Source: a virus. From it: a stretch of 27,565 nucleotides of DNA. Location of the stretch: the IMG/VR virus record IMGVR_UViG_3300020452_000311, positions 1 through 27,565 of that record, one strand, 5' to 3'. A model generated the notes under the pieces. That model saw only the letters and a program-made list of their open reading frames with translations. It was not told where the DNA came from and searched no databases. Positions 595 to 20,600 of the stretch are shown here, one piece after another (within the stretch, counting starts at the first letter, position 1; each line of letters begins with the position of its first letter). The position numbers were made by a program, and so were the translations under genes.

Positions 595-1899
595 ATGGCA
601 ATAGAAGTAAGTCGGAGAGATGTAACGTCCGAAAAAATTTTAGATTTACAATCTGAGGCAAGGTTTCTTAAATTACCAGTGGATCCTTATTTGGAACTAC
701 TCGGCGTAGAGCCTCTTGCATCGCAAAAGGCTATCATAAACGCGATAAATAATCCGAAATACCGTTTTGTATGTGCGGCAGTTTCAAGGAGACAGGGTAA
801 AACCTATATCGCAAATATAATTGGGCAGCTAGTTTCTCTAGTGCCCAATTCTAACATACTCATAATGTCCCCCAACTATGCCTTGTCTCAGATTTCTTTT
901 GACCTTCAAAGAAATCTGATCAAGCATTTCGATTTAGAGGTTTCAAAAGATAATGCAAAAGACAAAGTTATTGAACTCACCAATGGCTCCACAATACGTA
1001 TGGGTTCTGTCAATCAAGTTGATAGTTGTGTTGGTAGGAGTTACGACCTTATCATCTTTGATGAGGCCGCTTTGGCTGATGGAAGAGACGCCTTCAATGT
1101 TGCCCTTCGCCCCACGCTTGATAAAGATAACTCAAAAGCCATCTTCATAAGTACACCTAGAGGAAAGAACAACTGGTTCTCCGAGTTTTTCTACAGAGGA
1201 TTTTCAGATGAATTTACAGAATGGGCATCTATACGAGCTACTTATAAAGATAATCCTCGCATGTCTGAGAATGATATTTCGGAAGCTAGAAAATCTATGT
1301 CCGAGTCTGAATTTAGACAAGAGTATGAAGCTGACTTTAATACTTATGAAGGTCAAATCTGGAACTTTAATCATGAGGAGTGTATAGCTAATTTTAGCGA
1401 GTTAGATACTTCTAAGATGGATATGTTTGCAGGTCTTGACGTAGGATATCGAGATCCCACAGCCTTTTGTGTAATAGCGTATGACTGGGATGAAAAAACA
1501 TATTATTTAGTAGATGAGTACTTAGATGCGGAAAAAACTACTGAGCAGCACGCAAAAGAAATACAACAAAAGATACAGAAGTGGGATATAGATTATATTT
1601 ATATTGATTCAGCAGCTCAGCAAACACGATTTGACTTTGCTCAAAATTATGATATTTCTACTATAAATGCAAAGAAAAGTGTACTTGATGGAATAGCACA
1701 TGTAGCCGGAATAGTAGATAATAATAAATTACTTATAGAACAAACCTGTGCAGAATCATTATCATCTTTAGATCAGTATCAATGGGATCCAAATCCAAAC
1801 CTGGCTCGTGAAAAACCAAAACACAATAGAGCCTCACATATGTCAGATGCACTTAGATATGCATTATATTCGTTTGAAACATCTACAACAAGTTTTTAG
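595..1899 (+). CDS. terL: Terminase large subunit (packaging ATPase and nuclease)
   Basis: This 434-residue protein is the DNA-packaging motor, which docks on the portal, pumps DNA into the prohead and cuts the concatemer. The ATPase half shows a Walker A motif at residues 63-70 (VSRRQGKT), a Walker B at 151-157 (DLIIFDE, with catalytic Glu157) and the coupling motif IFISTPRG at 183-190. The C-terminal RNase H-like nuclease shows the expected acidic residues in GLDVGYRDPTA (Asp282), IYIDSA (Asp338) and HMSDALRYA (Asp418). Length is normal for the family. GAGGT at 585-589 precedes the ATG. No small terminase subunit is recognisable in the window; it may lie to the left. Promoter P1 follows the gene. 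Confidence 0.95.
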   Translation: MAIEVSRRDVTSEKILDLQSEARFLKLPVDPYLELLGVEPLASQKAIINAINNPKYRFVCAAVSRRQGKTYIANIIGQLVSLVPNSNILIMSPNYALSQISFDLQRNLIKHFDLEVSKDNAKDKVIELTNGSTIRMGSVNQVDSCVGRSYDLIIFDEAALADGRDAFNVALRPTLDKDNSKAIFISTPRGKNNWFSEFFYRGFSDEFTEWASIRATYKDNPRMSENDISEARKSMSESEFRQEYEADFNTYEGQIWNFNHEECIANFSELDTSKMDMFAGLDVGYRDPTAFCVIAYDWDEKTYYLVDEYLDAEKTTEQHAKEIQQKIQKWDIDYIYIDSAAQQTRFDFAQNYDISTINAKKSVLDGIAHVAGIVDNNKLLIEQTCAESLSSLDQYQWDPNPNLAREKPKHNRASHMSDALRYALYSFETSTTSF

Positions 1900-1982: not shown

Positions 1983-2348
1983 ATGGCTGAACTGAAACGA
2001 GATATAGTAAAATATATCCGAGATAGAGCGAAAAATAATTACGATAAAGATTCGGAATGCTATATCTGTGGTATCGATCTTAAACTTGATTTTCACCATT
2101 ACTATACATTAGCACCTCTTATTCATAATTGGATGAAAAAGACCGGACACAATCCTAAATATATTCTTGCAATTAGGGATGATTTTATAGAAGAGCATTG
2201 GGCAGAGTTATACGAACATACTGTAACTTTGTGTCACGCACACCACAGACAATTACATAAAGTATATGGCCGCAACCCCGCATTGACAACAGCAAGAAAA
2301 CAAATGCGTTGGGTACAGATTCAAAGAGATAAACATGGCATGGTATGA
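1983..2348 (+). CDS. HNH endonuclease next to terminase
   Basis: The product is 121 residues. An HNH nuclease core is visible: Zn ligands Cys26 and Cys29 (CYIC), the catalytic-type histidines in LDFHHYY (38-39), and TLCHAHHRQLH (82-92). This last run fits the family pattern LCxxCHxxxH, except that the second Cys is His87. Phages with cos-type ends often carry an HNH protein beside the terminase that helps the terminase cut during packaging (known for HK97 gp74), so a packaging role is likely. A free-standing homing nuclease is the alternative. The gene has its own promoter P1 but no clear Shine-Dalgarno. Its end overlaps the portal gene by 14 bases. Confidence 0.85.
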   Translation: MAELKRDIVKYIRDRAKNNYDKDSECYICGIDLKLDFHHYYTLAPLIHNWMKKTGHNPKYILAIRDDFIEEHWAELYEHTVTLCHAHHRQLHKVYGRNPALTTARKQMRWVQIQRDKHGMV

Positions 2349-3522
2349 TAGATTTCTTGGTAAAGATGATGAGGATAAATTAAATCCTGCTCAACCTTTG
2401 CTTGGTGGAGATATACAAACTACTAGAGAACCTACTGTCAGCTATGAGCGTCAGTATGAAGAATTAGAAATTGTTAATCGTGCTGTAAATATGGTTGTTG
2501 ACGATGCTGCTGAGATTCCTGCAACAATTCAAGGCTCAGCAAAACACGCTGGAATTATAAAAGGAATAAAAAGGGCAAAAGTTGATACATTACTAAACTA
2601 TGAGCCCAATCTTTTTCAAGATATTAATACTTTTAAAAGAAACTTAATTACAGACTATGTTTTAGATGGAAACATTTTTATATATTTTGATGGAGTACAT
2701 TTATATCATCTTCCTTCTAGTAAAATGTCAATACATTCGAGCGAAAGCAGTTATATTGAAAAATTTACATTCGCACAAGATATTGACTATTCCCCAAACG
2801 AAATTATACATATTAAAGAAAACTCTTTCTTTTCAATTTATAGAGGAGTACCAAGATTAAGTCCTGCCCTTCGAACAATGCAACTAATGGCATCTATGAG
2901 AAAGTTTCAAGACAACTTTTTTAAGAATGGAGCGGTACCTGGACTTGTTTTAAAGAGTCCTAATACTTTATCTGAAAAGATTAAAGAAAGAATGATACAA
3001 TCTTGGGGTGTACGATATAAGCCAGAAGCAGGTGGAAAACGTCCTTTAATTTTAGATGGTGGAATAGAAATAGATTCTATATCAAATGTAAATTTTAAAG
3101 ATTTAGATTTTCAAAGTTCGATAGCAGAAAATGAAAAGATAATTTTAAAGGCGATCGGAGTCCCTCCAATTTTATTAGACTCTGGTAACAACGCCAACAT
3201 TCGCCCAAATATGCGATTATACTATTTGGAGACGATACTACCTATTGTTCGAAAAATGAATTTTGCATTTGAAAGATTTTTTGGATTTAGTATTAAAGAA
3301 GATGTAACAGATATACCTGCATTACAACCAGAACTGAGAGATCAATCTGCATATTATACTTCCCTAGTAAATGGAGGTATAATATCAGCAAATGAAGCAC
3401 GAATACAGCTTGGTTTTGAGCCGTTAAATGGACAAGATGATGTGAGAGTTCCAGCAAACATAGCAGGAAGTGCAGCAAACCCAGATGAAGGCGGAAGGCC
3501 TGTAGAAGAGGAAGAAGAATAA
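2335..3522 (+). CDS. Portal protein (HK97 family)
   Basis: This 395-residue protein forms the dodecameric ring at one capsid vertex, through which DNA enters and leaves and to which the terminase and neck attach. The length is typical of HK97-type portals. Recognisable family features are the segment DNFFKNGAVPGLVL near residue 195, a GG-LILDGG strand pair near 240, and the helix-loop ILKAIGVPPILLD near 280 followed by a long helix that would be the clip/stem. The C-terminal end is acidic (a run of Glu) and proline-rich. The start at 2335 lies inside the end of the HNH gene with only a weak purine-rich site (AGAGA), so translation is probably coupled. Confidence 0.92.
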   Translation: MAWYDRFLGKDDEDKLNPAQPLLGGDIQTTREPTVSYERQYEELEIVNRAVNMVVDDAAEIPATIQGSAKHAGIIKGIKRAKVDTLLNYEPNLFQDINTFKRNLITDYVLDGNIFIYFDGVHLYHLPSSKMSIHSSESSYIEKFTFAQDIDYSPNEIIHIKENSFFSIYRGVPRLSPALRTMQLMASMRKFQDNFFKNGAVPGLVLKSPNTLSEKIKERMIQSWGVRYKPEAGGKRPLILDGGIEIDSISNVNFKDLDFQSSIAENEKIILKAIGVPPILLDSGNNANIRPNMRLYYLETILPIVRKMNFAFERFFGFSIKEDVTDIPALQPELRDQSAYYTSLVNGGIISANEARIQLGFEPLNGQDDVRVPANIAGSAANPDEGGRPVEEEEE

Positions 3523-3833
3523 TGGCGGGATCGTCAAAACAAAAAAAGAACTTAGCAAGTACAATGTCAATGTATTTTGCAGAAGCAGGATGGATTGTTA
3601 CTCCAAAAGAATTCAGTGAAGATTCAAATAGACCAGAACTAATTAAGATGTCAACTATTCGAAAAATATTTGGCTCTTGGTCAATTATGGTAAAATTTAC
3701 ACAATCATTTTGTCCTGAGCTAATGCGGGGACTAACTGAAGAAAAGCCTAAACTAGCGAATCCGCTAGATGAGTTAAAGAAGGCACAGACCGCAGAAGCG
3801 GAAATAGAGGGGGCAAATGGAAAAAGTATTTAA
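3522..3833 (+). CDS. Conserved-position hypothetical protein between portal and protease
   Basis: This 103-residue protein starts in a TAATG overlap with the portal stop, with GAGGAAG at 3508-3514 as its ribosome site. The first 75 residues look like a compact alpha/beta or helical domain with several aromatic residues (WIV, FGSWSIMVKF). The last 25 are Ala/Glu/Lys-rich and helical. It ends 17 bases inside the protease-capsid gene and supplies that gene's ribosome site. The position suggests a head-assembly role (decoration, neck or scaffold accessory), but I do not recognise the family. Confidence 0.7.
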   Translation: MAGSSKQKKNLASTMSMYFAEAGWIVTPKEFSEDSNRPELIKMSTIRKIFGSWSIMVKFTQSFCPELMRGLTEEKPKLANPLDELKKAQTAEAEIEGANGKSI

Positions 3834-5799
3834 TCTCACCTCAACTTTTAAGTCTCATACCGAAGACGATGGTAGTGTTATGATTCGTGGTATGGCAAGT
3901 ACAAATGACTTTGATCGCGCGGGCGATTCAATTTCAACTGATGCATGGACTAAAGGTGGGTTGAACAATTTTGAAAAGAACCCCATAATTCTTTTCAACC
4001 ATGACTACAATAGACCGATTGGAAGAGCCACTGGCTTAAAAACAACCGAAAATGGTCTAGAGCTAACTGCTAAGATTAGCAAAGCAGCTAAAGATGTTGT
4101 AGATTTAGTTAAAGACGGTGTTCTTGGGGCCTTTTCTGTTGGTTTCCGAGTCAAGGACGCTGATTATATCGAGGAAACCGACGGATTAAAGATAAAGGAC
4201 GCTGAATTATTTGAGGTATCAGTAGTATCTGTACCTTGCAATCAGTCAGCTACTTTTTCATTGGCGAAGTCTTTCGACTCCATGGAGGAGTATGAAAACT
4301 TCAAAAAAACTTTCACTAATAGTGACGGGGCGCAAGTCCAAAAGGAGATAACGATGTCTGAAGAGACACAACAACCCGTTGACTTGGAAGCTTTTGCTAA
4401 AAAAGTAGCTGAGGAAACTGCTGCTAAAATTGCAATGAAGCAAGCCGAGCAAAAAGCAGCCGATGAGGCTGTACAAAAAGACGTTGAGGAAAAAGCCGCT
4501 GCTGATGCAGAAGCCAAAGCTCAACAGGACCAAGAAGTACAAACAGCCATTAAGACCGGTATTGAGTCAGGTGCAGACCGACTTATGGAAGATCTTAATG
4601 CAAAAATGTCTGAGAAAGACGCTAAGATCGATGAGATCATGAAGCAGCATGAGTCAGTTCTAAAAGAAAAGCAAGAAGAACTTGACAAGATGCGTGAATC
4701 AAAGCGTATATTTGCTGATCGTAAATCTACTACACTTTCTGACGATGTTAAGAAAGAAATGGTTTATGCTCATATTCTTGGAAAAGTTACAAGAAAGGGT
4801 TTTGACACCAATTACGGTCAAGACGTACTTCAAAAAGCAGGCATAACTTATGATGCTACTAGCGCAGCTGGTATCGACGTAAGTGTTTCTCAAGCTTTTG
4901 AAGAGGCTGTCAGACTCGAGCAAAAAGTAGCTCCTCTTTTTAAAGAGATCCAGGTATTGTCTGGTGCAACTGTACTACCAATTGCTCCTGATACTGAAGT
5001 CGCAAACTTCAATGCAACCGGTTTAGAAACCGCTGCTAACCTATTGGAAGAGAAAGGTGCAAGCGATAACAACTATAATGTAAATCGCATATTGCTACAA
5101 GCCTTCAGACTAGTTTCTGGTACTTTTATCAGCAACGATACTGACGAGCAAGTAGTAGTTACACTTCTTCCGATGATTACTTCCGCTCTTGCACGAGCAC
5201 ACGCGAAGGCAATTGACCAAGCAATCTTGCTGGGTAATTCATCCTTCAAGGGTCTTGTAGGCGGAACTGGTACTGATGGTGCTAACTCACCTTACGCATT
5301 TGACTCAACTCTCGTAGCTGATCTCGATGCCTCTGGTAGTTCAGACGCTGTTACTGGTGCTAACTTGCTTTCAATTCGATCTGAAATGGGCAAGTTTGGT
5401 GTTAGTCCTAGTGATGTTGCTTATATTGTTCCTGTGGATCAGTATTACAACCTTATTGGTGATGCAGCCTTCTCTGACGTGTCAGAAGTTGGTAGCGATA
5501 CAGCAATGAAGCTGATCGGTGCGGTTGGTTCTATCTACGGTTCACCTGTAGTAGCTTCCGACGCTCTGGCTAGCCAAACTGGTGCTGGCGGTGCTGTAAC
5601 AACTTCAGCTGCTGTTGCAGTTGCGGTTAATAACTATGTTATACCTCGGTTGAAGGGCGTAAGCATTGAAACCGATTACGAAGTTGCTGGTCAGCGTACC
5701 GCAATAGTAGCTGCTCAATCCTTAGGATTTAATGAGCTTGAAGCTGCTGCTGCAGCGCATCCTGGTGACAACGGTGCTGTTAGAATAGAGTACGCCTAA
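3817..5799 (+). CDS. Prohead protease fused to HK97-fold major capsid protein
   Basis: A single 660-residue frame carries two proteins that are usually separate. Residues 1-150 are a prohead protease (S78/U35 class): catalytic-type His62 in LFNHDY, Ser107 in GAFSVGF, and an acidic partner in ELFEVS near 130-133. Residues 180-300 are Ala/Glu/Lys-rich coiled coil, matching the HK97 delta (scaffold) domain that the protease removes. Residues from about 305 to 660 are the HK97-fold shell protein, with LFKEIQVLSGATVLPIA, an ARAHAKAIDQAIL helix and a C-terminal GVSIETDYEV strand. Cleavage near residues 296-305 is likely. GAGGGGG at 3807-3813 precedes the ATG. An internal start at 4354 probably gives most of the capsid protein separately. 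Codon choice is richer in G and C than in flanking genes, as expected for high expression. Confidence 0.9.
   Translation: MEKVFNLTSTFKSHTEDDGSVMIRGMASTNDFDRAGDSISTDAWTKGGLNNFEKNPIILFNHDYNRPIGRATGLKTTENGLELTAKISKAAKDVVDLVKDGVLGAFSVGFRVKDADYIEETDGLKIKDAELFEVSVVSVPCNQSATFSLAKSFDSMEEYENFKKTFTNSDGAQVQKEITMSEETQQPVDLEAFAKKVAEETAAKIAMKQAEQKAADEAVQKDVEEKAAADAEAKAQQDQEVQTAIKTGIESGADRLMEDLNAKMSEKDAKIDEIMKQHESVLKEKQEELDKMRESKRIFADRKSTTLSDDVKKEMVYAHILGKVTRKGFDTNYGQDVLQKAGITYDATSAAGIDVSVSQAFEEAVRLEQKVAPLFKEIQVLSGATVLPIAPDTEVANFNATGLETAANLLEEKGASDNNYNVNRILLQAFRLVSGTFISNDTDEQVVVTLLPMITSALARAHAKAIDQAILLGNSSFKGLVGGTGTDGANSPYAFDSTLVADLDASGSSDAVTGANLLSIRSEMGKFGVSPSDVAYIVPVDQYYNLIGDAAFSDVSEVGSDTAMKLIGAVGSIYGSPVVASDALASQTGAGGAVTTSAAVAVAVNNYVIPRLKGVSIETDYEVAGQRTAIVAAQSLGFNELEAAAAAHPGDNGAVRIEYA
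4342..4347 (+). promoter_or_regulatory. Internal Shine-Dalgarno deciding the nested capsid start
   Basis: AAGGAG lies 6 nt before the in-frame ATG 4354, inside the fused protease-capsid gene. It is as strong as or stronger than the sites of most genes in the window. It falls exactly at the junction between the protease domain and the delta domain, where an intergenic ribosome site would lie if the two genes were separate. Confidence 0.7.
4354..5799 (+). CDS. Nested start: major capsid protein with delta domain
   Basis: An in-frame ATG at 4354 (codon 180 of the fusion) is preceded by AAGGAG at 4342-4347 with a 6-nt spacer, which is a textbook ribosome site. The product would be 481 residues, starting MSEETQQPVDLEAF, and would hold the coiled-coil delta domain plus the whole HK97 shell domain without the protease. 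Capsids need hundreds of shell subunits but few proteases, so a nested start would supply the right ratio, much as lambda C and Nu3 share a frame. The site and frame are seen directly; its use is inferred. Confidence 0.7.
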   Translation: MSEETQQPVDLEAFAKKVAEETAAKIAMKQAEQKAADEAVQKDVEEKAAADAEAKAQQDQEVQTAIKTGIESGADRLMEDLNAKMSEKDAKIDEIMKQHESVLKEKQEELDKMRESKRIFADRKSTTLSDDVKKEMVYAHILGKVTRKGFDTNYGQDVLQKAGITYDATSAAGIDVSVSQAFEEAVRLEQKVAPLFKEIQVLSGATVLPIAPDTEVANFNATGLETAANLLEEKGASDNNYNVNRILLQAFRLVSGTFISNDTDEQVVVTLLPMITSALARAHAKAIDQAILLGNSSFKGLVGGTGTDGANSPYAFDSTLVADLDASGSSDAVTGANLLSIRSEMGKFGVSPSDVAYIVPVDQYYNLIGDAAFSDVSEVGSDTAMKLIGAVGSIYGSPVVASDALASQTGAGGAVTTSAAVAVAVNNYVIPRLKGVSIETDYEVAGQRTAIVAAQSLGFNELEAAAAAHPGDNGAVRIEYA

Positions 5800-5883: not shown

Positions 5884-6474
5884 ATGGCTAATTTAATTAC
5901 ATTACAAGATTATAAAACTGCGGAAGGTATCACTCAACCGAAGGATGATGCCCGACTTAATGTATTAATTCCTTCCGTGAGCCAATTAGTAAAAACTTAT
6001 TGTGGAAATAGCTTTGTAGATTTTCATTCTTCAAATAAAACAGAGACTTTTGATATTAATTGGGGTACTCACGTTGTTCAATTAACAGAAAGTCCAGCAA
6101 ATACAATAGTAAGTGTACAAGAAAGAACTTCATATAATGGTTCTTACACAACTCTTACAACAACAGATCATGAATTTTATTTAAATACAACAACAGATAG
6201 TGTATTTAGAACTTTAAGTTCTGGAGGATTCAAAGACTGGCCTCAAGGAGTAGGCGCAGTCAAAATAGTTTATACAGCCGGCTATAGTGCTGTGCCTTCT
6301 GATCTTAAGCTCGCAGTACTTGATCTTATAACTTATTATCTAAAAGACGAGCATAAGCAAAGGCAATCTATAGCAGGTGCTAGTTTACAAAATCAAGGTA
6401 GTACAAGTCAAACAAATAATGTGTCTTTTCCAGACCATATTAAGAGAGTTTTAGACTTATATAAGAATTTTTAG
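5884..6474 (+). CDS. Head-tail connector (HK97 gp6-like adaptor)
   Basis: This 196-residue protein has the typical start of the family (MANLITLQDYKTAEGI, leading into a predicted helical pair) and the C-terminal signature VYTAGYSAVPSDLKLAVLDLITYYLKD, which is a helix that packs in the connector ring. The adaptor ring sits under the portal and links it to the tail. The middle section (residues about 60-120) is beta-rich. Position right after the capsid gene supports the call. No Shine-Dalgarno precedes the ATG; the leader is AU-rich (TTTTTAATAATTGACTT). Its stop overlaps the GTG start of the next gene (TAGTG). Confidence 0.82.
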   Translation: MANLITLQDYKTAEGITQPKDDARLNVLIPSVSQLVKTYCGNSFVDFHSSNKTETFDINWGTHVVQLTESPANTIVSVQERTSYNGSYTTLTTTDHEFYLNTTTDSVFRTLSSGGFKDWPQGVGAVKIVYTAGYSAVPSDLKLAVLDLITYYLKDEHKQRQSIAGASLQNQGSTSQTNNVSFPDHIKRVLDLYKNF

Positions 6475-7820
6475 TGGCAAAAGCAGACTTAAATAAATTG
6501 GCTAAACGTATTCAAAAAGAAATTGAACAAACTTCTACTGCGTACAGGCGTTTAGTTTCTGATAGAAAAGCGCATACTATTACTGTTAGTCAGCAGAAAA
6601 TATTGACACAAGTAAAAAGAGAGATGGAAAGTAGGGCAGGGTATGAAAAAAATAACTTGCCTAAAACTATTACTGATATAATTGATACTGAAGTACCAAA
6701 AATGGTAATGGGTATGTATAAAGATATTAAAAGTTATAATACTGACCAAAAATTTTCTTTTGTGTCAGAGTTAATCGGAAACAGTACTAGATTTACTTTT
6801 AATCTTGCAGCTAAAAAAGGAAGGTCTGCAAATATTTTTAATGCGTTTAGAAAAGTAAAACAAGACAATCAAAGAATTTTACTTAGAAAACTACGTGCTG
6901 CAATAAAAAAATTAAATGCGGGAAGAAAAGAAGGAAATCAAATTCGTACCATTGGCAAAAATTTTCTAGATATTGGACACCAGGAAGGATCTGCTGTATC
7001 TACTCAACGAACACAAAAAGCTCAACAAGTTTTATTTGAATGGGGTACAAATATAGCAGGTGGCGAAAGATTTTTAAAGGAAATTTCTGATAAAGTAAAT
7101 TTAAAACTTACTAAAAAAGACGGTGAACCAGTAGATACAGTTGAAGCAGAATTAGAAAGTAAGTTTTTAAATAGAAAAAGAGGTGGAGGAGCAGAAAAAG
7201 CTCTTTCCCTACAATTAGCAAAAGATTTAGATACAATTCTTAAAGGTGAAGGCGCAGATATGTGGGTAAATCAAGGGGGTTCTGATTCAAAGTTTGAAAA
7301 AATAGAAAAAACTTTTTTAAACCCTTTTGCAGCAAAAGCAAGACGAAGTGCAGGACTTACAGTAAATTTTTCTGAAAAAAAGGTTAAAAAATCTAATACT
7401 ACTGCGTCAGGAAAGGCAAGAAAAGTAAAAGTTACTAAAGGCGCTAGAACACTAGATAAGGTAGTGGGAGCAACACCAGCCTTTGCCATGGAAAATAGGC
7501 AAAATATGTTTGCTCTTATGGCACTGATAAATAAAAAATTACCTGATGTTGTTAAGAAAAATATGAGGTCTCCTGGATTAGAAAGCCGAACTGGGGCGTT
7601 AGCAAGAAGTGTAGAGATAAAAGACGTAAGGCCGACTAGAAAAGGTTTTCCTAGTTTTGGTTATACGTATGGAAAAGAACCTTATCAAGTATTTGAAACA
7701 GGAAAAGGATTAGAACCTTGGGCAACCCCAGAAAGAGACCCAAGAAATTTAATTGATCGATCAATACGAGAAATAGCAGCAGATATGGCTCTGGGGAGAT
7801 TCTTCACTAGGAGACTATAG
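6474..7820 (+). CDS. Large neck protein with tail-completion-like C-terminus
   Basis: This 448-residue protein starts at GTG 6474, in a TAGTG overlap with the connector stop and with no clear ribosome site, so it is probably coupled. Most of it is Lys-rich and helical (residues 1-330), without a domain I recognise. The last 110 residues resemble HK97 gp10-type neck/tail-completion proteins: a helix ending NMRSPG, then SRTGALARSVEI, a beta segment YGKEPYQVFETG, and a closing helix RDPRNLIDRSIREIAADM. Those proteins are usually only 100-160 residues, so this would be an extended version. The place between connector and tail terminator supports a neck role. The N-terminal function is unknown. 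Confidence 0.6.
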   Translation: MAKADLNKLAKRIQKEIEQTSTAYRRLVSDRKAHTITVSQQKILTQVKREMESRAGYEKNNLPKTITDIIDTEVPKMVMGMYKDIKSYNTDQKFSFVSELIGNSTRFTFNLAAKKGRSANIFNAFRKVKQDNQRILLRKLRAAIKKLNAGRKEGNQIRTIGKNFLDIGHQEGSAVSTQRTQKAQQVLFEWGTNIAGGERFLKEISDKVNLKLTKKDGEPVDTVEAELESKFLNRKRGGGAEKALSLQLAKDLDTILKGEGADMWVNQGGSDSKFEKIEKTFLNPFAAKARRSAGLTVNFSEKKVKKSNTTASGKARKVKVTKGARTLDKVVGATPAFAMENRQNMFALMALINKKLPDVVKKNMRSPGLESRTGALARSVEIKDVRPTRKGFPSFGYTYGKEPYQVFETGKGLEPWATPERDPRNLIDRSIREIAADMALGRFFTRRL

Positions 7821-8275
7821 TGGCATCAACAGAAAGACAATATACTTCTCGTAGAGCAGGAATAACAGCAGCTCTAGCGGATAAAATTGCAAAAATCGAT
7901 GGAAGAGGTTTATATAAACAAGCTGTAGCAGAAACTAGCTCTAGATTAAAATTCTGGGATGAAGTAGAAGAGTTTCCCGCAGTTCATTTAAATGCAGGAG
8001 CAGAAAGCAGGGAATATCAAACCGGCGGTTATAAAACTAGATTTCTAAATGTAACGGTAAGATGTTATGTTAATGAAGAAGATGCAGTTAGTGCACTAGA
8101 CGAATTATTAGAAGATGTAGAAACCGTTTTAGAAGAAAATAGTCGTTTAAAATACAACGATAGAAACGGACTAGAACAGTTTACTCAACAAATCACTATA
8201 GTTAGTATAGATACTGATGAAGGTGTGTTAGATCCTCTAGGGGTTGGAGAAATCCTTATAGAGGTTCGTTACTAA
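7820..8275 (+). CDS. Tail terminator protein (lambda gpU-like)
   Basis: The product is 151 residues from GTG 7820, with AGGAG at 7809-7813 six bases before it and a TAGTG overlap with the previous stop. The layout fits the tail terminator family: an N-terminal helix, beta strands carrying RFLNVTVRCYV, a helix (SALDELLEDVETVLEE) and a C-terminal strand pair ending LGVGEILIEVRY. Such proteins form a hexameric ring that caps the tail tube once it reaches tape-measure length and joins it to the head. The gene immediately precedes the tube protein, as in lambda-like tails. Confidence 0.72.
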   Translation: MASTERQYTSRRAGITAALADKIAKIDGRGLYKQAVAETSSRLKFWDEVEEFPAVHLNAGAESREYQTGGYKTRFLNVTVRCYVNEEDAVSALDELLEDVETVLEENSRLKYNDRNGLEQFTQQITIVSIDTDEGVLDPLGVGEILIEVRY

Positions 8276-8337: not shown

Positions 8338-10047
8338 ATGGCTCAACAATTATATTTTAGCCGTGATACGCGAATGTTTATACAGTTTCGTAATCCGGCT
8401 GATAATACAGAGACCGCAAATAAATTAGGGGCGGGTGCTCTTTGGGAGGTACCAATCTTAGATGGATATAGTTTCTCACAGACTACGAACACCTCTGAAA
8501 TAACTCTGGCAGAAATGGAAAGTACGGCAGGTATTAGTAGACGAGGTCGTCGTATGTTTACAGACTCTCTTGCTCCGGCAGAGTGGTCTTTCTCAACATA
8601 TATTCGTCCTTTTAAGTCTCTTGGAGCAAATAGTACAGCTACAGGTGTAAAAGCAGCAGAAGTAACTACAGGCACTGATGTTCATGCGGTAGAAGAAGTT
8701 CTATGGGCTTCAATGTTTGGTGCAGATACATATACAGCATCAACTAGTACTTTTACTCGAGCTACAAACCCTGCAGTAAGTGGTGGACCGGTTCTAACAC
8801 CTGGAGCTACTAGTTCGGTGCTTTCAATTGCAGAATCAAACAGATCGGCATTAACCAGTTTTACGGTTTATTTTATGATTGATACCGCAACAAGCAATCC
8901 TTTAATATATCGACTACCAGAAGCAGTTGTTAATGAGGTGGCTATTGACTTTGATGTTGATGGTATTGCAACCTTAAACTGGAGTGGTTTTGCGAAAGAA
9001 GTACAAGATGTATCTGGAAATGCTATTGAAGGAACAACTGCTCCTTCAAACAGTGCAACTACAAAAGACGGTTCAACTATCACATTTGGTGATATCTTTA
9101 TCGATACTGATAATGCATTAGGACGAGCTTTCCATCTAGTAACTTCTGAAGCAAGTACAGTAGATATAGTACAAGCAATTGATGAAGCCAGTACAAGTAC
9201 AAAGAACTTTATTCGAAACCGACTAACTTCAGTAAGTATTGAAGCAGCTACCTCAACAGATAAAGTTACAACGATCTTCCCAGGTGCTATTGCTACTATC
9301 AGTGCAATTGATGTAACTAATGAAGTACTTACTACAGGTACAGCGCATAATCTTACTACAGGTGATCAAGTATTTATAACAGGTTGTACTGGAAATACTG
9401 ACTTAAATAATACTCATCACTTTGTTCGAGTAGGAGACGAGACTGGAACCTACGCAGGTACTACTAATCCTACTACTGAGTTTGCACTGTTTGGTACAAA
9501 AACCCAAGCAGAGAACTTAGGTAGTGCAACAGGATTAGTAGCAATTGGTTCAGGTTCTTATAATGCGAACACAGGCACAGTTGCAAACGGTAAGTATGAT
9601 CTCGTACTAACCGGAGGTAACTTTACTATTGGTAATAATATTACTTACTTGGTACCAGAAGAATTAGGTGCAATTAACAAGCCGCTGGAACACGTAACGG
9701 GTACACGAGCCGCTACAGGTACAGCAACCTGTTATTTAACCCTAGAAGATTCTGACTTAACAAGTGGTACTTCTAGACAGTTCTTTAATGATCTGGTCGG
9801 TACAGGTGCTATGGGTAAAGTTGTAAACAAGTTTAAGGTGACTATGAATATTGGTGGTGCAACCGCTACAACTAATACTACTGATCCTGCTTTGAAGGTT
9901 GAATTTCCAACTGCTCATATTACAGTACCAACTCACCAAATCGAAGATGTAATTTCACTAGAAACAAGCTTTGAGGCTTTACCGACAGACTTCGGAACAG
10001 CCGATGAAATAACAGCAGTTACCTACTTCCCAGTAGATACCTACTAA
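8338..10047 (+). CDS. Major tail tube protein with inserted surface domain
   Basis: This 569-residue protein is placed as the subunit of the tail tube by position and by its N-terminal pattern (residues 1-95: a beta-rich start with ILDGYSFSQTTNTSEITLAEME and RRMFTDSLAPAEWSFSTYIRP, as in long siphovirus tube proteins). The C-terminus (about 440-569) returns to tube-like strands. Residues about 316-400 look like an inserted module: TGTAHNLTTGDQVFITGCTG followed by aromatic-rich strands. This matches a motif that recurs in phage tail proteins and resembles the E1 FCCH-like fold. It is likely displayed on the outside of the tube. AGGAG at 8326-8330, 7 nt before the ATG, is among the strongest ribosome sites here. 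A strong terminator follows. Confidence 0.82.
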   Translation: MAQQLYFSRDTRMFIQFRNPADNTETANKLGAGALWEVPILDGYSFSQTTNTSEITLAEMESTAGISRRGRRMFTDSLAPAEWSFSTYIRPFKSLGANSTATGVKAAEVTTGTDVHAVEEVLWASMFGADTYTASTSTFTRATNPAVSGGPVLTPGATSSVLSIAESNRSALTSFTVYFMIDTATSNPLIYRLPEAVVNEVAIDFDVDGIATLNWSGFAKEVQDVSGNAIEGTTAPSNSATTKDGSTITFGDIFIDTDNALGRAFHLVTSEASTVDIVQAIDEASTSTKNFIRNRLTSVSIEAATSTDKVTTIFPGAIATISAIDVTNEVLTTGTAHNLTTGDQVFITGCTGNTDLNNTHHFVRVGDETGTYAGTTNPTTEFALFGTKTQAENLGSATGLVAIGSGSYNANTGTVANGKYDLVLTGGNFTIGNNITYLVPEELGAINKPLEHVTGTRAATGTATCYLTLEDSDLTSGTSRQFFNDLVGTGAMGKVVNKFKVTMNIGGATATTNTTDPALKVEFPTAHITVPTHQIEDVISLETSFEALPTDFGTADEITAVTYFPVDTY

Positions 10048-14000: not shown

Positions 14001-14332
14001 GTGGTATTGCAAGAATGGAGGACTACTCTAGAGGAGGAGTTGCAAGAGGAAAACAATCAGGATATCCTGCAGTTTTACATGGAACAGAAGCAGTTGTACC
14101 TTTACCTGATAATCGTTCTATTCCTGTAGAAATGAAAGGCGGAATGGGACAACAAAATAACGTAACTGTAAATGTAAGTATTGATGGCAATGGACAATCG
14201 CAACAACAAAATAGTCAATCAGATGGAGCAATGGGTGAAAACTTAGGAAGACTCATTGCTTCGGCAGTACAAGATGAATTACACTTTCAAAAACGATCGG
14301 GCGGAATACTTAATCCGTATGGAGTAGCATAA
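11009..14332 (+). CDS. Tape measure protein
   Basis: This 1107-residue protein sets tail length and is ejected ahead of the DNA. By the usual 0.15 nm per residue it predicts a tail near 165 nm. It is helical and Lys/Gln/Ala-rich, with hydrophobic segments at about 67-90, 279-303 and 486-504 that could form a channel in the host membrane. Residues 185-235 (ELLDELGITLRLEEA, ELTTFERSQAVLVETQ) carry a motif common in tape measures. The C-terminus has the frequent Gly-rich pattern GGIARMEDYSRGGVA followed by AVLHGTEAVVPLPDN near residue 1030. It starts in a TAATG overlap with the chaperone long form. No lytic peptidase domain is apparent. Confidence 0.93.
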   Translation: MAKNTVTIKVRIDDKGNLKQVGKKSKQAAEGMDQASKSAGTLDRNLKGAGKASSGASKNFSKMSQGMGGFVGAYATLAANVFAVSAAFNFLKRAADVEQLRKSQVEFARSSGTALQSVTDRLREASGGMLGFQEAAQAAAIGSAKGFSPQQLEELAISAGKVSKALGRDFTDSFDRLVRGISKAEPELLDELGITLRLEEATNRYADALNKNAKELTTFERSQAVLVETQRQVNAQFADFEGSDNAFVKLQKTFEDVVNMVMKKVLPVFEGFANIISNNIGLAIGIFALIGAKIIGTIPAVAGLGTKLNEFVENSESGMKKAQEDMDTYAESVGIAKAELKKASDLAETAFSAAKGGAQDVAKDMKARKGSGLEKLQKGEDPSKRQLAGMLKAAKDNTGEYKNLDKERRLYFIKQLEIMQKEHGKTHKTMRTRVKKLGLGFKSLGLTLKKSVVGTLHMVKRVGVGSFAAVGKAAIFAGKQINKAMKFTIIASIFVGILQSLEQIRKFPYSFMQNMIEAVVEIGKTFQMLVNAVFFGFNKMGNAFRGIFGLDKKDQFQLNLIDEDTASNLMKGLESNALTKGVMKSAKEMEAASVKADKYTEAIKKIGEMSQTVAEDLKAIIEGLNDLPKGAAKSLQKMTAIGSAGVSGLIQRALDSATSRIKVGGMFGREEDVIDQEQAQAGLDEIINKLGARIKRISPELRNALNAPIEEALQKVQRMETQALEFTSATKQMGAQVEQIQSNLGGKNFEATLEMTDPLVAVRDRLIDIGKATNEVTKAQELMDEAFGFAGGLNAYREQITNLIQEEERLKGTRTALAVLSANTALLSGGFVQQEQERIGVQKSRLAVEENLLKIEKAQFLLREAEAAVGENKSVEKITELEKEITTLQRLGVELQNNADIAESNANDINKIGKTIGQSLQDNLSGAFNALVQGTKSFKDAFKDMAKAILADIAQMITRMLVMRMLTSAFGGSGFGDFLGIPAAKKGGILEPPQYRYGGIARMEDYSRGGVARGKQSGYPAVLHGTEAVVPLPDNRSIPVEMKGGMGQQNNVTVNVSIDGNGQSQQQNSQSDGAMGENLGRLIASAVQDELHFQKRSGGILNPYGVA

Positions 14333-14742
14333 TGGCAGTAGGTGATATAGGGTTTATAGTCCCAAATATCAGTAATAGTATTCCTGTAGTACCTGATAAA
14401 ACATTAAACAGACAAACTCAACCAAAAGTTAGAGTAGCAAGGTTTGGTGATGGCTATCAACAAAGAATTGCTGATGGGTTAAATACTCTGAGAGATACTT
14501 TTACCGTAAATTTTGTTAATAGATTAAAAGCGGAAGCAGACGATATAGAAGCTTTCTTTAGAACTAAAAAAGCAGTCACAGCTTTTAGTTTTACTTATCC
14601 AGATTCTAATTCGGGAACAAATGATAGCGAAGGTAGTCCTGTTACTACAATTAAAGTGGTGTGTACTCAATGGAGTCAATCATGGTCAAATAGCGGCAGC
14701 TATAGTATTACAGCAACATTTGAAAGAGTGTATGAACCATGA
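14332..14742 (+). CDS. Minor tail protein (lambda gpM-like)
   Basis: The product is 136 residues, close to the length of lambda gpM (109). The family pattern is visible: PKVRVARFGDGYQQRIADGL at residues 27-46, then FTVNF, AFFRTKKAVTAFSFTYPD in the middle and a C-terminal SYSITATFERVYEP. gpM-type proteins build the distal tail below the last tube ring. GGAG at 14321-14324 serves the ATG, which overlaps the tape measure stop (TAATG). The end overlaps the next gene in an ATGA. Confidence 0.88.
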   Translation: MAVGDIGFIVPNISNSIPVVPDKTLNRQTQPKVRVARFGDGYQQRIADGLNTLRDTFTVNFVNRLKAEADDIEAFFRTKKAVTAFSFTYPDSNSGTNDSEGSPVTTIKVVCTQWSQSWSNSGSYSITATFERVYEP

Positions 14743-16229
14743 GTGTAGCAATAGCAACAGATACACAAGCTAGTGAAATTACTAGTGGTTTAATTCATTT
14801 ATATGAAATAGAATTAGGTACAGGCACAAATAACAAACTATATTTTCATTCAGAAAAAGATTTAGATGGTACTGACTCTAATAAAGATATAATTTTTGAT
14901 GGAAATACTTATATTTCCTTACCCATAATGATAGATAGTATTGAAAAGAAATCTGATGGGGCAATGAATCGCCCCAAAGTAACAATTGCTAATGTAGAAA
15001 GTTTATTAAAAACAGGTTCAGCATTTAAAACAGAAATGGAAGATGGAACTTGGGACTCCTTAATTCAAGGAGAAAATATAACAGCAGCAGGCTTTAAGTT
15101 TGAAAATTTAATTGGACAAAGATTTATAAGAAGAAAAACTTTAGAAAAATATACTGGTAGTGCTACTCCTGTAGAGTTTCCTAAAGAAACATTTATTGTG
15201 GATAGAATTACAGATAAAACTTTTTTATCCGTAACACTTGAACTTGCATCACCAATGGAACTATCAAATGTTAAAATTCCTGCAAGAGTTGTTGTAGGTA
15301 AATATTGTCCTTGGATATACAAAGAATTTAATAATGATCAAACAAAAAGTGCATGTTATTGGAAAACTAATGAACAAATATTAGATACAGAAGGTGATTC
15401 TTATACTTTTTATTTTACTCTTAATGATGAGCCTTTAGTATTTTATGATCATTTTTATAATGCAAATGGAACAAGAAAAACAGCATACACTTCTGTAATT
15501 TCAAGAGTTGCTATTGTGAATGCGGGAAGTGGTTATACTTCTCCGCCAACAGTAACAATTAGTGCTCCTAGTAGTGGAACTACAGCTACAGCGACAGCCA
15601 CTATTTCAGCAGGAAAAGTTACAGGAGTATCGATTACAAATGCAGGCACAGGATATGATGCAGCAGCCACAGTTACTTTTAGTGGCGCACCAAGTGGAGG
15701 GACAACAGCTATCGGAGTAGTGCATAATTCGATTGGAATATGGAAAGGAGACTATTCATCCAGTACTTCTTATGTTGCAGGGCACTATGTATATTCAAAT
15801 ACTCTTTCAAATAGTAATACAGTAGGTTCTGATACATGGCGAGCAGAAGGTTCCGTATCAGGAGTTACTCCCACTGAGGGAAGTATTTATTGGCAGGCTG
15901 TAAGAACTTATACAACTTGGAATAACTCTACTACTTATACAGTTAAACCTCATGATATTAGACAAAATTCTTATGTTAGGTATACGGATAATAATATTTA
16001 TAGAGCAATAAAAGAAAATACAAACATAACTCCGGGAACAGATGAGTCTGTTTGGATAAGAGCCGATGTTTGTGGAAAACTATTAAAATCTTGTAAGATA
16101 CGATATCAAGCGCTCCCATCAAGATTAGTTAGTAGTGATGTTAAAACTAACTCAATACCAGCAGCACAGTTTAATAGTGTAGTTTCTTTACCTTTCGGAG
16201 GCTTTCCTGGAAGTAAAAAGTTTAGATAG
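14739..16229 (+). CDS. Minor tail protein (lambda gpL-like) with split Fe-S domain
   Basis: This 496-residue protein is about twice the length of lambda gpL (232). Residues 1-185 match the gpL N-terminal beta domain (IHLYEIEL, RRKTLEKYTG, TLELASPMEL). Four cysteines fit the gpL iron-sulphur site: Cys190 and Cys206 (KYCPWIY, SACYWK), then Cys445 and Cys452 (VCGKLLKSCKIRY). The last pair has the same spacing as in lambda, followed by LPFGGFPG. About 240 residues are inserted between the two pairs: a Gly/Thr-rich repeat (AGSGYTSPPTVTIS and AGTGYDAAATVTFS) and a Trp/Tyr-rich part with WKGDYSSSTSYVAGHYVYS and SYVRYTDNNIYRAIKENTN. The latter resembles CBM5/12-like carbohydrate-binding modules. The insert is probably exposed at the tail tip. 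ATGA overlap with the gpM-like gene. Confidence 0.85.
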   Translation: MSVAIATDTQASEITSGLIHLYEIELGTGTNNKLYFHSEKDLDGTDSNKDIIFDGNTYISLPIMIDSIEKKSDGAMNRPKVTIANVESLLKTGSAFKTEMEDGTWDSLIQGENITAAGFKFENLIGQRFIRRKTLEKYTGSATPVEFPKETFIVDRITDKTFLSVTLELASPMELSNVKIPARVVVGKYCPWIYKEFNNDQTKSACYWKTNEQILDTEGDSYTFYFTLNDEPLVFYDHFYNANGTRKTAYTSVISRVAIVNAGSGYTSPPTVTISAPSSGTTATATATISAGKVTGVSITNAGTGYDAAATVTFSGAPSGGTTAIGVVHNSIGIWKGDYSSSTSYVAGHYVYSNTLSNSNTVGSDTWRAEGSVSGVTPTEGSIYWQAVRTYTTWNNSTTYTVKPHDIRQNSYVRYTDNNIYRAIKENTNITPGTDESVWIRADVCGKLLKSCKIRYQALPSRLVSSDVKTNSIPAAQFNSVVSLPFGGFPGSKKFR

Positions 16230-16930
16230 TGAATTTAGAAAAAATAGAAGAACATTTTAAAGATGAATATCCTAGAGAAGGCTGTGGAGTTTTAGCTGTT
16301 GTAAAAGGTAAAAAACAATTTTTTCCTTGCACAAATGTAGCGGAAGATAACGAAGATTTTGTAATTGATTCAAAAGAGTATATAAAACTTCTTCGAACAA
16401 CAGATATTATAGGAATAGTACATAGTCATCCAGATTCTACATCAGAGCCAACAGAAAATGATAAAAAATATTGTAATACACTAGGAATTCCTTATTATAT
16501 TTTTAGTTATCCGGACATGGATCTTACAGTAGTAGAACCAGAAAAGAATCTTACTGATCTATATGGACGAGAGTATGAGTTTGGAGTTGCAGATTGTTTT
16601 GAAGCAATGCGAGACTATTTAAAGTCTCAAAATATAAATATTCCTCCAAGAGCTTTATTTGAAGATGATTGGTGGAAAAAAGAGAAACTTGATTATTTTT
16701 CTCCTGAAGTAATAAAAGATTGGGGAGGACAACCAATTGATATTAATACTAATTTACAAATAAATGATGTATTAATATTTAAAGTTGAAACAGAAATAAA
16801 CAATCATTGTGGAGTTTATTTAGGAAACGATATATTTTATCATCATGCGGTAAATAGACTCTCATGTAGAGAGAATATTTATCCTTTTTGGCACAAGTAT
16901 CTAATAGGAGCATATAGATATGTTGCGTAA
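16229..16930 (+). CDS. Tail tip JAB/NlpC-P60 peptidase (lambda gpK-like)
   Basis: This 233-residue protein has two domains. Residues 1-105 are a JAB/MPN metallopeptidase-like domain with the JAMM pattern H65-x-H67-x7-T75-x2-D78 (VHSHPDSTSEPTEND) and Glu17; Thr replaces the usual Ser. Residues 115-233 are an NlpC/P60 domain with catalytic-type Cys123 (VADCFEAMRDYL), His193 (NHCGVYLG) and His205/206 (YHHAV). gpK-type proteins act in tail tip assembly and may cut peptidoglycan on entry. The start is GTG 16229 in a TAGTG overlap. The end overlaps the gpI-like gene by 11 bases. Confidence 0.9.
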   Translation: MNLEKIEEHFKDEYPREGCGVLAVVKGKKQFFPCTNVAEDNEDFVIDSKEYIKLLRTTDIIGIVHSHPDSTSEPTENDKKYCNTLGIPYYIFSYPDMDLTVVEPEKNLTDLYGREYEFGVADCFEAMRDYLKSQNINIPPRALFEDDWWKKEKLDYFSPEVIKDWGGQPIDINTNLQINDVLIFKVETEINNHCGVYLGNDIFYHHAVNRLSCRENIYPFWHKYLIGAYRYVA

Positions 16931-17627
16931 TGTATATTTAGAAGGTGAAATGGGAGAAAAGTTTGGAACTGGTTTTCAAATTTATGCCGAATCGGTAAGT
17001 GATGTAATACGTTGTCTTGATGTAAATATTGATGGAGATATTCGTAACTATTTAATTGACTGTCATAGCAAAGATATTGGATTTGTAGTTGATGTTGCAG
17101 ATAATACTTTTGAAGATGAAAAAGAACTTCTTATGCCTATGCATGAAGGAGATATTACAATTACCCCAATGGCAGCAGGGTCTAAATCAGCTTTTGGAAA
17201 AATACTTGCAGCTATAGCATTAGTAGTAGTTATACTGAATCCTGCATTACTTCCTGGAATAACCATGACTCCAGGCCCAATAGTTGTGCCAAAAGGAGCG
17301 TTTCTAGGTATGAGCGTGGGTACAACAAAACTAGTCTTAGGAGCAATCGCTATAAATTTAGCAATGGCAGGAATGACGCAAATGATGGCTCCTGACCCCG
17401 CAGTTGATACTAGTCAGCCTACTAATTATTTATTTAATGGTCCTCAACAAAATACCGTACAAGGAGATCCAGTTCCGCTTTTATATGGTAGACTTCGTGT
17501 TCCTGGACAACCAGTAAATTTTGAAATATCAGGGGTAAATAATAAACAAATAACTACTAGTTTTAATGAAAATGGGTCAACCGGCACAATGCATAATATA
17601 GCAGGCCCGGATATGGAGATAACTTAA
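16920..17627 (+). CDS. Tail tip assembly protein (lambda gpI-like)
   Basis: The product is 235 residues, near the 223 of lambda gpI. The N-terminus has the family pattern NVYLEGEMGEKFGTGFQIYA followed by SVSDVIRCLDVNI. Two hydrophobic segments follow (about 91-112, ILAAIALVVVILNPALLPG; and 137-155, LVLGAIAINLAMAGMTQMM). The C-terminal part carries DPVPLLYGRLRVPGQPVNFE, also typical. It is thought to help assemble the gpJ hub. AGGAG at 16906-16910 lies nine bases before the ATG. It ends in a TAATG overlap with the gpJ-like gene. Confidence 0.85.
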   Translation: MLRNVYLEGEMGEKFGTGFQIYAESVSDVIRCLDVNIDGDIRNYLIDCHSKDIGFVVDVADNTFEDEKELLMPMHEGDITITPMAAGSKSAFGKILAAIALVVVILNPALLPGITMTPGPIVVPKGAFLGMSVGTTKLVLGAIAINLAMAGMTQMMAPDPAVDTSQPTNYLFNGPQQNTVQGDPVPLLYGRLRVPGQPVNFEISGVNNKQITTSFNENGSTGTMHNIAGPDMEIT

Positions 17628-20600
17628 TGTTACATGGTTTAGATTTTCGCGTACATGATATGACTGCGGATGCAACTACATATGGAATAAATGGTTCCAG
17701 AGAACAAAATATTCTTGTAACAGACATTATTTCAGAAGGACCAATAGCCGGTCTTGTAGAAGGCGGTAAAAGTATTTTTTTAAATAATGATTCTTTACTA
17801 AATGTAGATATTGCTCCTTACATTGCTCCTCAGGGACAAACTATTACGTTAAATTCAGGAAGTGCTACGGGAACTGTTAATTTAAATAACACTACATTTG
17901 CAGAAGTACTCACAGCAGACTACGGTAAGAAATACTTAAATATTTGGGGGGCGTATGCAGCATTAAAAGCAACTATGAGTGCAAAACCTGAGCCCGCCTA
18001 TAGAAGCGATGGCAGTACTCCAGTTATAAATGGATGGAAATTTAGTTTATCTCGTACTTCCGGACCTAGTATGTTAACTGCATGGAATCACCCTGATGCG
18101 GATAAAGCTTTTGGCACAACTACAACTTGGAAGATCACGGATGGAAGTACAAGAGCAACTTTATCAACAGGTTCATCTCCTAGTGTAAAAATTCAAGGCG
18201 TTTTTACCGGTGTTACTGCAAATGGAACAGACTTTGAGTTTAGGTCTAAAGATGGACGACTAGAGTCACAGTTAATAAAAGCCGCAGACTATAATGGCAG
18301 TACTGAACATACTATTTATATTCATAGATTTTTTGAAATTGCTAGTATTTCAGGAACAACAATAACTCTTGCAAATAATTCTCCTATAAGTGTAACTAAA
18401 CGTTTTGGAATAACAAGTCCTCAACCTCAAACTAGTACACATACGGGTGCTACTGCATCTGTTGCGGCAAAAAAATATGCAGGAACTGACTTTTCTTTTA
18501 CCCCCGGAGATGTAGATCAAGAACCTTTAGTTTCTTTAGATGGTATTGGTAGCTCTTCGGTTGTTTTAAGTCAAATAAGTACAGCATCATTAGAAAAAGA
18601 TGCTGCTTCAATAATTACATCCACAGGTGTTCAAGCGAGTTTAATTGATGAGGTAAAAATTTTAATAGCTTACCCTCAAGGATTGTATGCTTTAGATGAG
18701 GGGGATGGAGATAAGTTTAGCGCCGGAGCAGGTTATAAAGTTGAGATACAACTAGATAGAGATGGCTTTGGTGATTTTATGATTATTGAAGGTAACCAGT
18801 CAGTAGGAGGTACTTCTGTATTTGGCCATGGAGGAGACTATAGAACTGCCGTAACTTTTGAATTTAGAATAGGACTAGAAGAGTTTCAACCTTTTAATGC
18901 GTTTAAAATTAGAATTACTCGACTAACACAACATGATTTTAACGCAGCAGGAGGAGTTCCTAGATATGGTAGCCTTACTTTAACAGGAAACGACGAACAT
19001 AAAATTATTGGAACAGCACAGCTTCAAGCTGTTACAGGGTTAATCAAAGAAAAACTTAATTTTCCGTATACTGCATATGCAAATGTAAAATTAAATTCAA
19101 AAACTTTTAATAATATGCCTACTCGTACATATGAATGTTATGGCTTGAAAGTTAAAGTTCCTTCGAATTATCAAACTCGTGAAGAAAATGATGGAGTAAC
19201 TGCAACCCAGAAAAGAAATACTTCTACAGGAGTAATAGAAAGTAGTTCTCAATTTTGGGATGGACAATTTAGAGACGATTTAGTATATACAGACAATCCT
19301 GCATGGATTTTTTATGATATTCTTACAAATAATAGATATGGATTAGGACAATATTTACAAGAACAAGATATAGATAAGTATTCTTTATATAAAATTGCAA
19401 GATATTGTGATGAGTTAGTTCCAGACGGTCTTGGGGGAGAAGAACCTCGTTTTAGAGCAAATCTTTATTTAACAAAAGCAACGGATGCTTATAAAGTCAT
19501 GAAAGATGTTGCTACAATTTTTAGGGGTATGCTATACTGGGCAGATTCTAAGTTTTTTGCAGTTATTGATGAAAGAAAAGAGCCTATTTTTAACTTTTCT
19601 CGTTCAAATGTTATTGATGGAGTATTTTCATATGAAAGTACAGGCGATAAAACTCGAGTAAATCAAATAATTGTTGAATGGAATAATCCAGACGGGGATT
19701 ATAAGCTAGAACCTATAATTGTAGAAGATGCTGAAAATCAAATAAAAACAAAACAAGTTAGATCTGAAAGAGCAATCGCATTTGGTTGTACTTCTTATGG
19801 ACAAGCTCTTAGATATGGACGTTGGAAGTTATGGACATCTATTAATCAAACAGAAATTGTAACTTTTAGTACCGCCATGGATGCTTCTTTTCTTACTCCA
19901 GGAGATATTATTAATATACAAGATGATGTCGACTATGAAGTACCTTTTAGCGGAAGAGTTTATGCTTATAATGCTTCCGGTCCTACTATAACTTTAGACA
20001 GAGACATTTCTTCACATTTTGCAGGTGGTTACACGTATGATATAGCTGTTATTCTTCCCAAAAGAACAATTTTATTAAATCAAGATAGTGCTACTATTAC
20101 TACTTCGGGTGGAAATGTTAATAAAGTAAGAGGAAACGAGATAACTGAAGCAACAGTTGCAGGCGCAGCAAAAACTCTTATTCATAGCACAACCGGTACT
20201 GTAAATGGTGCTGTAAATAATTCTGTAAATGTTACTTTAGATTCATCAAATTCTTTAATTACTATTGGAGATACAGTAACAGGTCTAGGAATTACTAGAA
20301 CCATAACAGTAGCAAATATAAGTGGAACAAGTTTAACTTTAAGTATTGCACAGACTATTGCCGATGATGCAACACTTACATTTGAAAATTCTGATACTAC
20401 TCGATTAAATATTTCCAGTGCTGTTGATTCTTCCGGTGCTTTTTTAAATTTACAATATGAAGAAAGTACTATTGTAGAGGAGCGAAGACTTACTACTGGT
20501 AGCACTACTACTTCCGCAGGTAGAAATACAATTCCTTTAAGTTCTGCTTTTTCGGTTGCTGCTACAGCGGGAGCTATTTGGGCAATAAAACAAATTTCTA

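Follow-up and report, generated by a model that had tools for sequence, protein, structure and literature searches.

The open reading frame at positions 3817-5799 of the window (the whole 27,565-nucleotide stretch of viral DNA analyzed here, IMG/VR record IMGVR_UViG_3300020452_000311) is very probably a two-product gene, as judged from sequence comparisons. It would encode a fusion of prohead protease, delta (scaffolding) domain and major capsid protein (MCP) and also, from an internal start, the plain delta-MCP precursor. The internal start site, a Shine-Dalgarno (SD) sequence plus start codon at the protease-capsid junction, is kept by selection at the nucleotide level, beyond what the encoded amino acids require. 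Fused protease-capsid genes seem paradoxical, since building one shell takes capsid subunits by the hundred but few protease copies. An additional start would resolve the paradox: a minority of lattice subunits would bring in the protease, and all subunits would be alike after cleavage.

Domain organization of the fused gene

The head module of the window has the T5 gene order, the same as that of annotated T5-like isolates (Table 1). The protease and the capsid protein were described beforehand as sharing one 660-residue frame, and this description holds: the frame is uninterrupted, with the maturation protease N-terminal and the structural part C-terminal. Residues 22-157 match the S78 prohead protease profile (and also TIGR01543). 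Residues H62 and S107, which from knowledge of the family we take to be the likely catalytic His and Ser, are invariant in A1 and A3. The MCP part matches the T5/DT57C capsids both by profile (6e-58, 8ho3) and by fold comparison (3.9e-19 against 8ho3). An AlphaFold2 model of the 660-residue protein, of modest confidence (mean pLDDT 59, low at residues 165-306), gives the order beta-rich protease, structureless segment (165-190), long helices (191-299) and capsid domain. As residues 165-190 lack secondary structure, Met180 sits in a linker. The predicted cleavage point K340/A341 aligns with K159/A160 of DT57C/T5, an alignment good to about one residue; K340 does not vary in A1 or A3, and A341 is constant in A1 and almost constant in A3. 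Assignment of the protein to NCBIfam NF045541 (prohead protease/MCP fusion protein) was rejected, because its score of 53.8 bits, which covers only the protease and linker region, is a tenth of the curated cut-off of 525 bits. For the tail tip genes at 14332-23587 the matches are to lambda-like families (minor tail proteins, tail assembly proteins and the central tail fiber J) and, given the T5-like head module, the genome of the window looks mosaic.

Table 1 Features of the head module and of the fused protease-MCP gene (window positions)
Feature	Positions	Strand	Basis or remark
Terminase large subunit	595-1899		
Small ORF	1983-2348		
Portal	2335-3522		
Small ORF	3522-3833		
SD-like GAGGGGG of the full-length (protease) start	3807-3813	+	Sequence; dG -7.0 in the window
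Protease-MCP fused ORF, 660 aa	3817-5799	+	S78 prohead protease, linker, MCP precursor
Prohead protease domain, residues 22-157	3880-4287	+	PF04586
Conserved RNA hairpin in the protease coding sequence	4117-4203	+	Outer stem 4117-4125/4195-4203; inner stem 4135-4146/4174-4185
Internal Shine-Dalgarno AAGGAG	4342-4347	+	
Nested ORF, plain MCP precursor, 481 aa	4354-5799	+	Putative start ATG 4354
Delta (scaffolding) domain, residues 180-340, 161 aa	4354-4836	+	Helical in model; boundary predicted by T5-type MCP alignment
Predicted mature MCP, residues 341-660	4837-5796	+	After K340/A341 cleavage; DT57C/T5 alignment; fold match to T5 capsids
Head completion	5884-6474		
ORF	6474-7820		
Tail terminator	7820-8275		
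Tail tube	8338-10047		

Nucleotide-level conservation of the proposed internal start and of an upstream hairpin

The preliminary description placed AAGGAG six nucleotides before an in-frame ATG, exactly at the domain junction. These coordinates are exact, the ATG being that of residue 180 in the modeled linker. In the window alone AAGGAG-N4-9-ATG occurs three times versus 1.7 expected, which is not beyond chance; such a single-window count is uninformative and the case for the site thus rests on conservation. All classifiable loci of the first scan were fused; with the second scan added, the totals were 155 fused loci (a number that includes the window and some contigs fetched twice), 5 separate loci, all of them named T5-like isolates, and 4 partial loci. 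The classifiable full-length IMG/VR relatives from these scans were all fused and comprised 135 unique genes, down to 50% amino-acid identity. The check that had been proposed, whether the SD and ATG are conserved beyond the amino-acid requirement, was run on these genes. A codon alignment has the ATG at residue 180 in 135/135, with GGAG at the identical six-nucleotide spacing; fused relatives lacking the site, which had been named as evidence against an internal start, were not found among the 135.

The same held for 55 divergent representatives (less than 85% nucleotide identity to each other, median 60% amino-acid identity), all 55 of which have NNG-GAG, a six-nucleotide spacer and ATG. The Glu177 codon is GAG in 55/55, although GAG makes up 37% of the Glu codons of the family and reaches at most 84% in other Glu-conserved columns. 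Residue 176 may be K, Q, E or L, and its codon is always NNG; no other column among the 372 with at least three amino acids has an invariant third base. Mapped on the tree, third-base changes number zero at 176 and 177 versus 12-15 at 173, 174, 178 and 179. The mean for the ten remaining Glu columns is 10.7 changes; one of these, Glu120, which lies inside the hairpin described below, is also unchanged. Of the 694 other in-frame ATGs, 6 have GGAG closely upstream, versus 55/55 at the junction. Conservation of codons, given the same residue, peaks at about residues 166-192, which span the site and the first capsid codons. Residues 181-192 (4357-4392), the first codons of the nested frame, are among the most codon-conserved of the gene, as is seen where translation of an abundant protein begins.

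Predicted SD strength was likewise exceptional. With an anti-SD that may differ from that of the host, pairing energy at the junction averaged -8.5 kcal/mol; other in-frame starts averaged -1.5, and synonymously shuffled sequences gave -4.2 +/- 0.4. Of the 21 ORF starts scored in the window, none has a stronger SD than the internal one (-8.7). The junction is also more open than other in-frame ATGs (mean unpaired probability 0.55 versus 0.40). These energies, the invariance of the site in 55/55 representatives and the lack of third-base change together lend strong support to the proposal that an internal start yields plain capsid protein. The further suggestion of a large excess of that protein is favored by the contrast between the stronger, invariant internal SD and the SD of the full-length start, which is weaker and variable among relatives (family mean -6.1). 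The internal SD is the stronger one in 114/126 relatives, an indirect argument because SD strength can only approximate the product ratio.

A second peak of codon conservation lies at residues 99-132. RNAalifold predicts a hairpin in this block at -26.3 versus -7.3 +/- 3.0 for shuffled columns, and the window's own RNA gives -33.2 versus -23 +/- 2.7. In 52 distinct sequences 98.5% of cells are paired, versus 78.6% upon synonymous resampling (a shared-draw null reached the observed value in 3/2000), and mean MFE is -33.3 versus -22.5 in resampled sequences. Third bases at paired positions vary almost only where pairing persists. Pair columns 13-93 show two-sided changes (A-U for G-C in 11 sequences) exceeding all 500 shuffles, and adding distant relatives gave a second pair with two-sided changes. 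Part of the family was fetched by an FRVKDAD pattern lying inside this block; the first-scan sequences, fetched by other patterns, show the hairpin too. A covariance model scored above 100 bits in the window, L370, L371, L373, L375, L376 and L379-L381. It gave about 58 bits in L383/L385 and less elsewhere, where similarity of the encoded protein would be enough to explain the scores. In the six most distant fused sequences 62% of cells are paired, and the hairpin is not clearly present in all fused relatives. An Rfam search with the hairpin returned two chance-level matches far below the gathering score. Two other readings of the block were discarded: a promoter, as the -10-like bases vary at third positions and the pattern fits the hairpin, and an overlapping gene, as the other frames have stops in nearly all sequences.

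Related fused and separate genes

Three fusion groups besides that of the window have a site at the same junction, kept less tightly. The first contains JLK-2012, PAJU2 and relatives in Enterobacterales, Hydrocarboniphaga and Mesorhizobium. In these genes an AGGA-type SD precedes an in-frame start where the MCP begins, and the SD falls in differing codon phases (AAA GGA AAA; AAG GAA AAG; CAG GAG GGC). The internal start codon of Hydrocarboniphaga is GTG. Of 30 sequences, 29 are at or below -5 kcal/mol, with a mean of -6.2 versus -4.7 +/- 0.3 for synonymous shuffles. The second group comprises the NF045541 proteobacterial prophages, for which the best ATG was picked per sequence. Over all members the mean best linker site is -7.6 versus -6.1 +/- 0.5, with 0/200 shuffles as low; for the core (n = 16) it is -7.6 versus -6.1 +/- 0.6, and the lowest of 200 shuffles just equals the observed value (about 1/200). 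The support from this group is moderate. In the third group (MD8, LESphi2, Kp4865-4, PSTCR8lys, Fels-1, mEp213 and one prophage) the protease is ClpP-like, and the same ATG is present in 7/7 with GAGGA, AGGAG or AAGGA upstream. This evidence is weaker because the SD-encoding residues are themselves conserved and the MD8 protease domain holds a stronger SD-like site. Note that the four groups are four fusion families, which does not imply independent origins.

Among distant fused T5-type loci, L358-L367, L370, L371, L374, L376, L378, L379 and L383-L385 also carry an SD followed by ATG at the junction, with different residues around them. Locus L372 has no site in the frame scanned; for L373, L375, L377, L381 and L382 the scanned frame started so far upstream that the junction was not reached. 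The internal start codon lines up with the MCP start of relatives whose two genes are separate (SOVA965, Mcat7, Mcat9 and the T5-likes). Stenotrophomonas phage SOVA965 (L303, 1055-1178) is a 63%-identical relative of PAJU2 having separate protease and MCP genes with AAGGA before the MCP start, and the two form a useful fused/separate pair.

The preliminary description also saw in the fused gene a former gene pair whose stop was lost, which is one possible direction of change. A scan of 80 loci with an MCP profile scored 54 as separate, 25 as fused and 1 as incomplete. In the tree the T5-likes (separate), L359/L366 (fused) and the large fused clade of the window join in an unresolved fork, and at least two changes of fusion state are needed overall, outgroup included. 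Stop loss and later splitting are both compatible with such a tree. Note that one of the loci scored as separate (L363) is really of the fused type, its frame being interrupted in the delta region (about 2534-2536) by a TAG in place of the AAA of close relatives; this TAG may be a sequencing error, a nonsense allele or a case of recoding.

Two proposed products, alternative readings and known systems

In the mechanism we propose, ribosomes starting at 3817 would make the protease-delta-MCP fusion, and independent initiation at the strong internal site (SD 4342, ATG 4354) would make the ordinary MCP precursor. The fusion would be a minority subunit and the plain capsid protein plentiful. Through the delta and capsid domains that both forms share, the fusion would co-assemble into the prohead and carry the protease inside. 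The protease would then cut both forms at about K340/A341, giving an identical mature subunit and freeing delta and protease-delta fragments. Because cleavage is expected to remove the delta domain (180-340), no peptide beginning at residue 180 is expected in mature virions, and the absence of such a peptide from virion proteomics, which had been named as evidence against the internal start, would mislead as a refutation.

The gene might instead encode a polyprotein, with full-length fusion as the only product, protease and MCP made 1:1, the protease excising itself and the internal SD-ATG being a relic. An autocatalytically cleaved fusion has been proposed for the PAJU2 capsid (PMC8306868), and self-processing by a fusion is possible in principle. 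A relic would decay, however, whereas this site shows zero synonymous change over 55 representatives even though an underlying residue changes, and the site recurs in other fusion groups. Moreover, a 1:1 ratio is far from that of HK97 proheads, which contain 415 MCP and about 60 proteases (PMC12749128). We consider the polyprotein very unlikely. Constraint on nucleotides does not by itself prove initiation, and a second constrained RNA element lies upstream; GGAG could be kept for another nucleic-acid reason, such as ribosome pausing at the domain border or RNA processing. Against this, the start codon and spacing are kept together with GGAG (the six-nucleotide spacing is fixed in the window's family), the GTG of Hydrocarboniphaga is still a start codon, and the MCP starts of unfused relatives align at the site, which makes a role other than initiation extremely improbable.

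The hairpin would be an addition to the two-product reading rather than an alternative to it. It ends 138 nucleotides upstream of the internal SD and might be cut (e.g., by RNase III) or slow ribosomes; much of the MCP would then come from mRNA or ribosomes that give no full-length protein. This position, the near-complete pairing, the MFE below the null and the pairing-preserving third bases are consistent with dosage control; the lower pairing in the six most distant sequences and the lack of an Rfam match at gathering score argue against it. We regard this role as speculation with a rather low chance of being right. Similarly tentative, and in our estimate improbable as a whole, is the extrapolation that tailed-phage protease-capsid fusions as a rule make two products (four groups, two unrelated protease types) and that the hairpin helps to set the ratio in the window's group. 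If the two-product arrangement is general, many phage and prophage annotations miss a highly made capsid protein and misname its N-terminus. A fused gene with an internal start would also be a clean, testable system for protease dosage and targeting in HK97-type assembly.

Nested-start protease genes and protease-MCP fusions are each known already. In the open literature searched we found neither their combination, in which selection maintains an MCP precursor nested in a fusion, nor any protease-MCP fusion described as having an internal start; an earlier description may exist elsewhere. PAJU2, MD8, Nocturne116, thaumarchaeal NCAV2-Pro1 and NF045541 all have protease and MCP in one ORF and, in the parts of their descriptions available to us, are presented as single fusions or self-cleaving polyproteins with no mention of a second start; the PAJU2, MD8 and NF045541 sequences gave candidate internal sites in the present analysis. 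In T5 the proheads contain 775 copies of pb8, the delta domain of which (159 residues; PMC10219371) is removed by the protease pb11 (PMC5292684). The window shares with the T5 head module the gene order, the S78 protease, a pb8-homologous MCP with a delta domain of similar length (161 residues) and the K/A boundary. It differs in that T5-like phages (e.g., phiR2-01, TrudiGerster, Vibrio phi 3, D360, Stubb and Slocum) have separate protease and MCP genes.

Two-product protease genes offer another parallel. In phage lambda the scaffold Nu3 is nested within the protease gene C. The protease genes of Mu and PaMx73 have a nested in-frame start with its own SD (PMC4378225). In herpesviruses (UL26/UL26.5) the long protease-scaffold form makes up about 10% of scaffold (PMC12474303), and the C-terminal part is likewise a separate, more abundant product; there it is scaffold rather than capsid protein that is nested, and these eukaryotic viruses have no SD-driven internal start. 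The fused gene of the window resembles Mu I/Z and lambda C/Nu3 in having a single frame, with a junction SD and start under nucleotide-level selection, that would give a long product with an N-terminal protease and a short C-terminal product from an internal start. In Mu and lambda a scaffolding protein is nested and a gene of its own encodes the MCP, whereas in the window the predicted nested product is the MCP precursor itself, with its delta domain as the scaffold.
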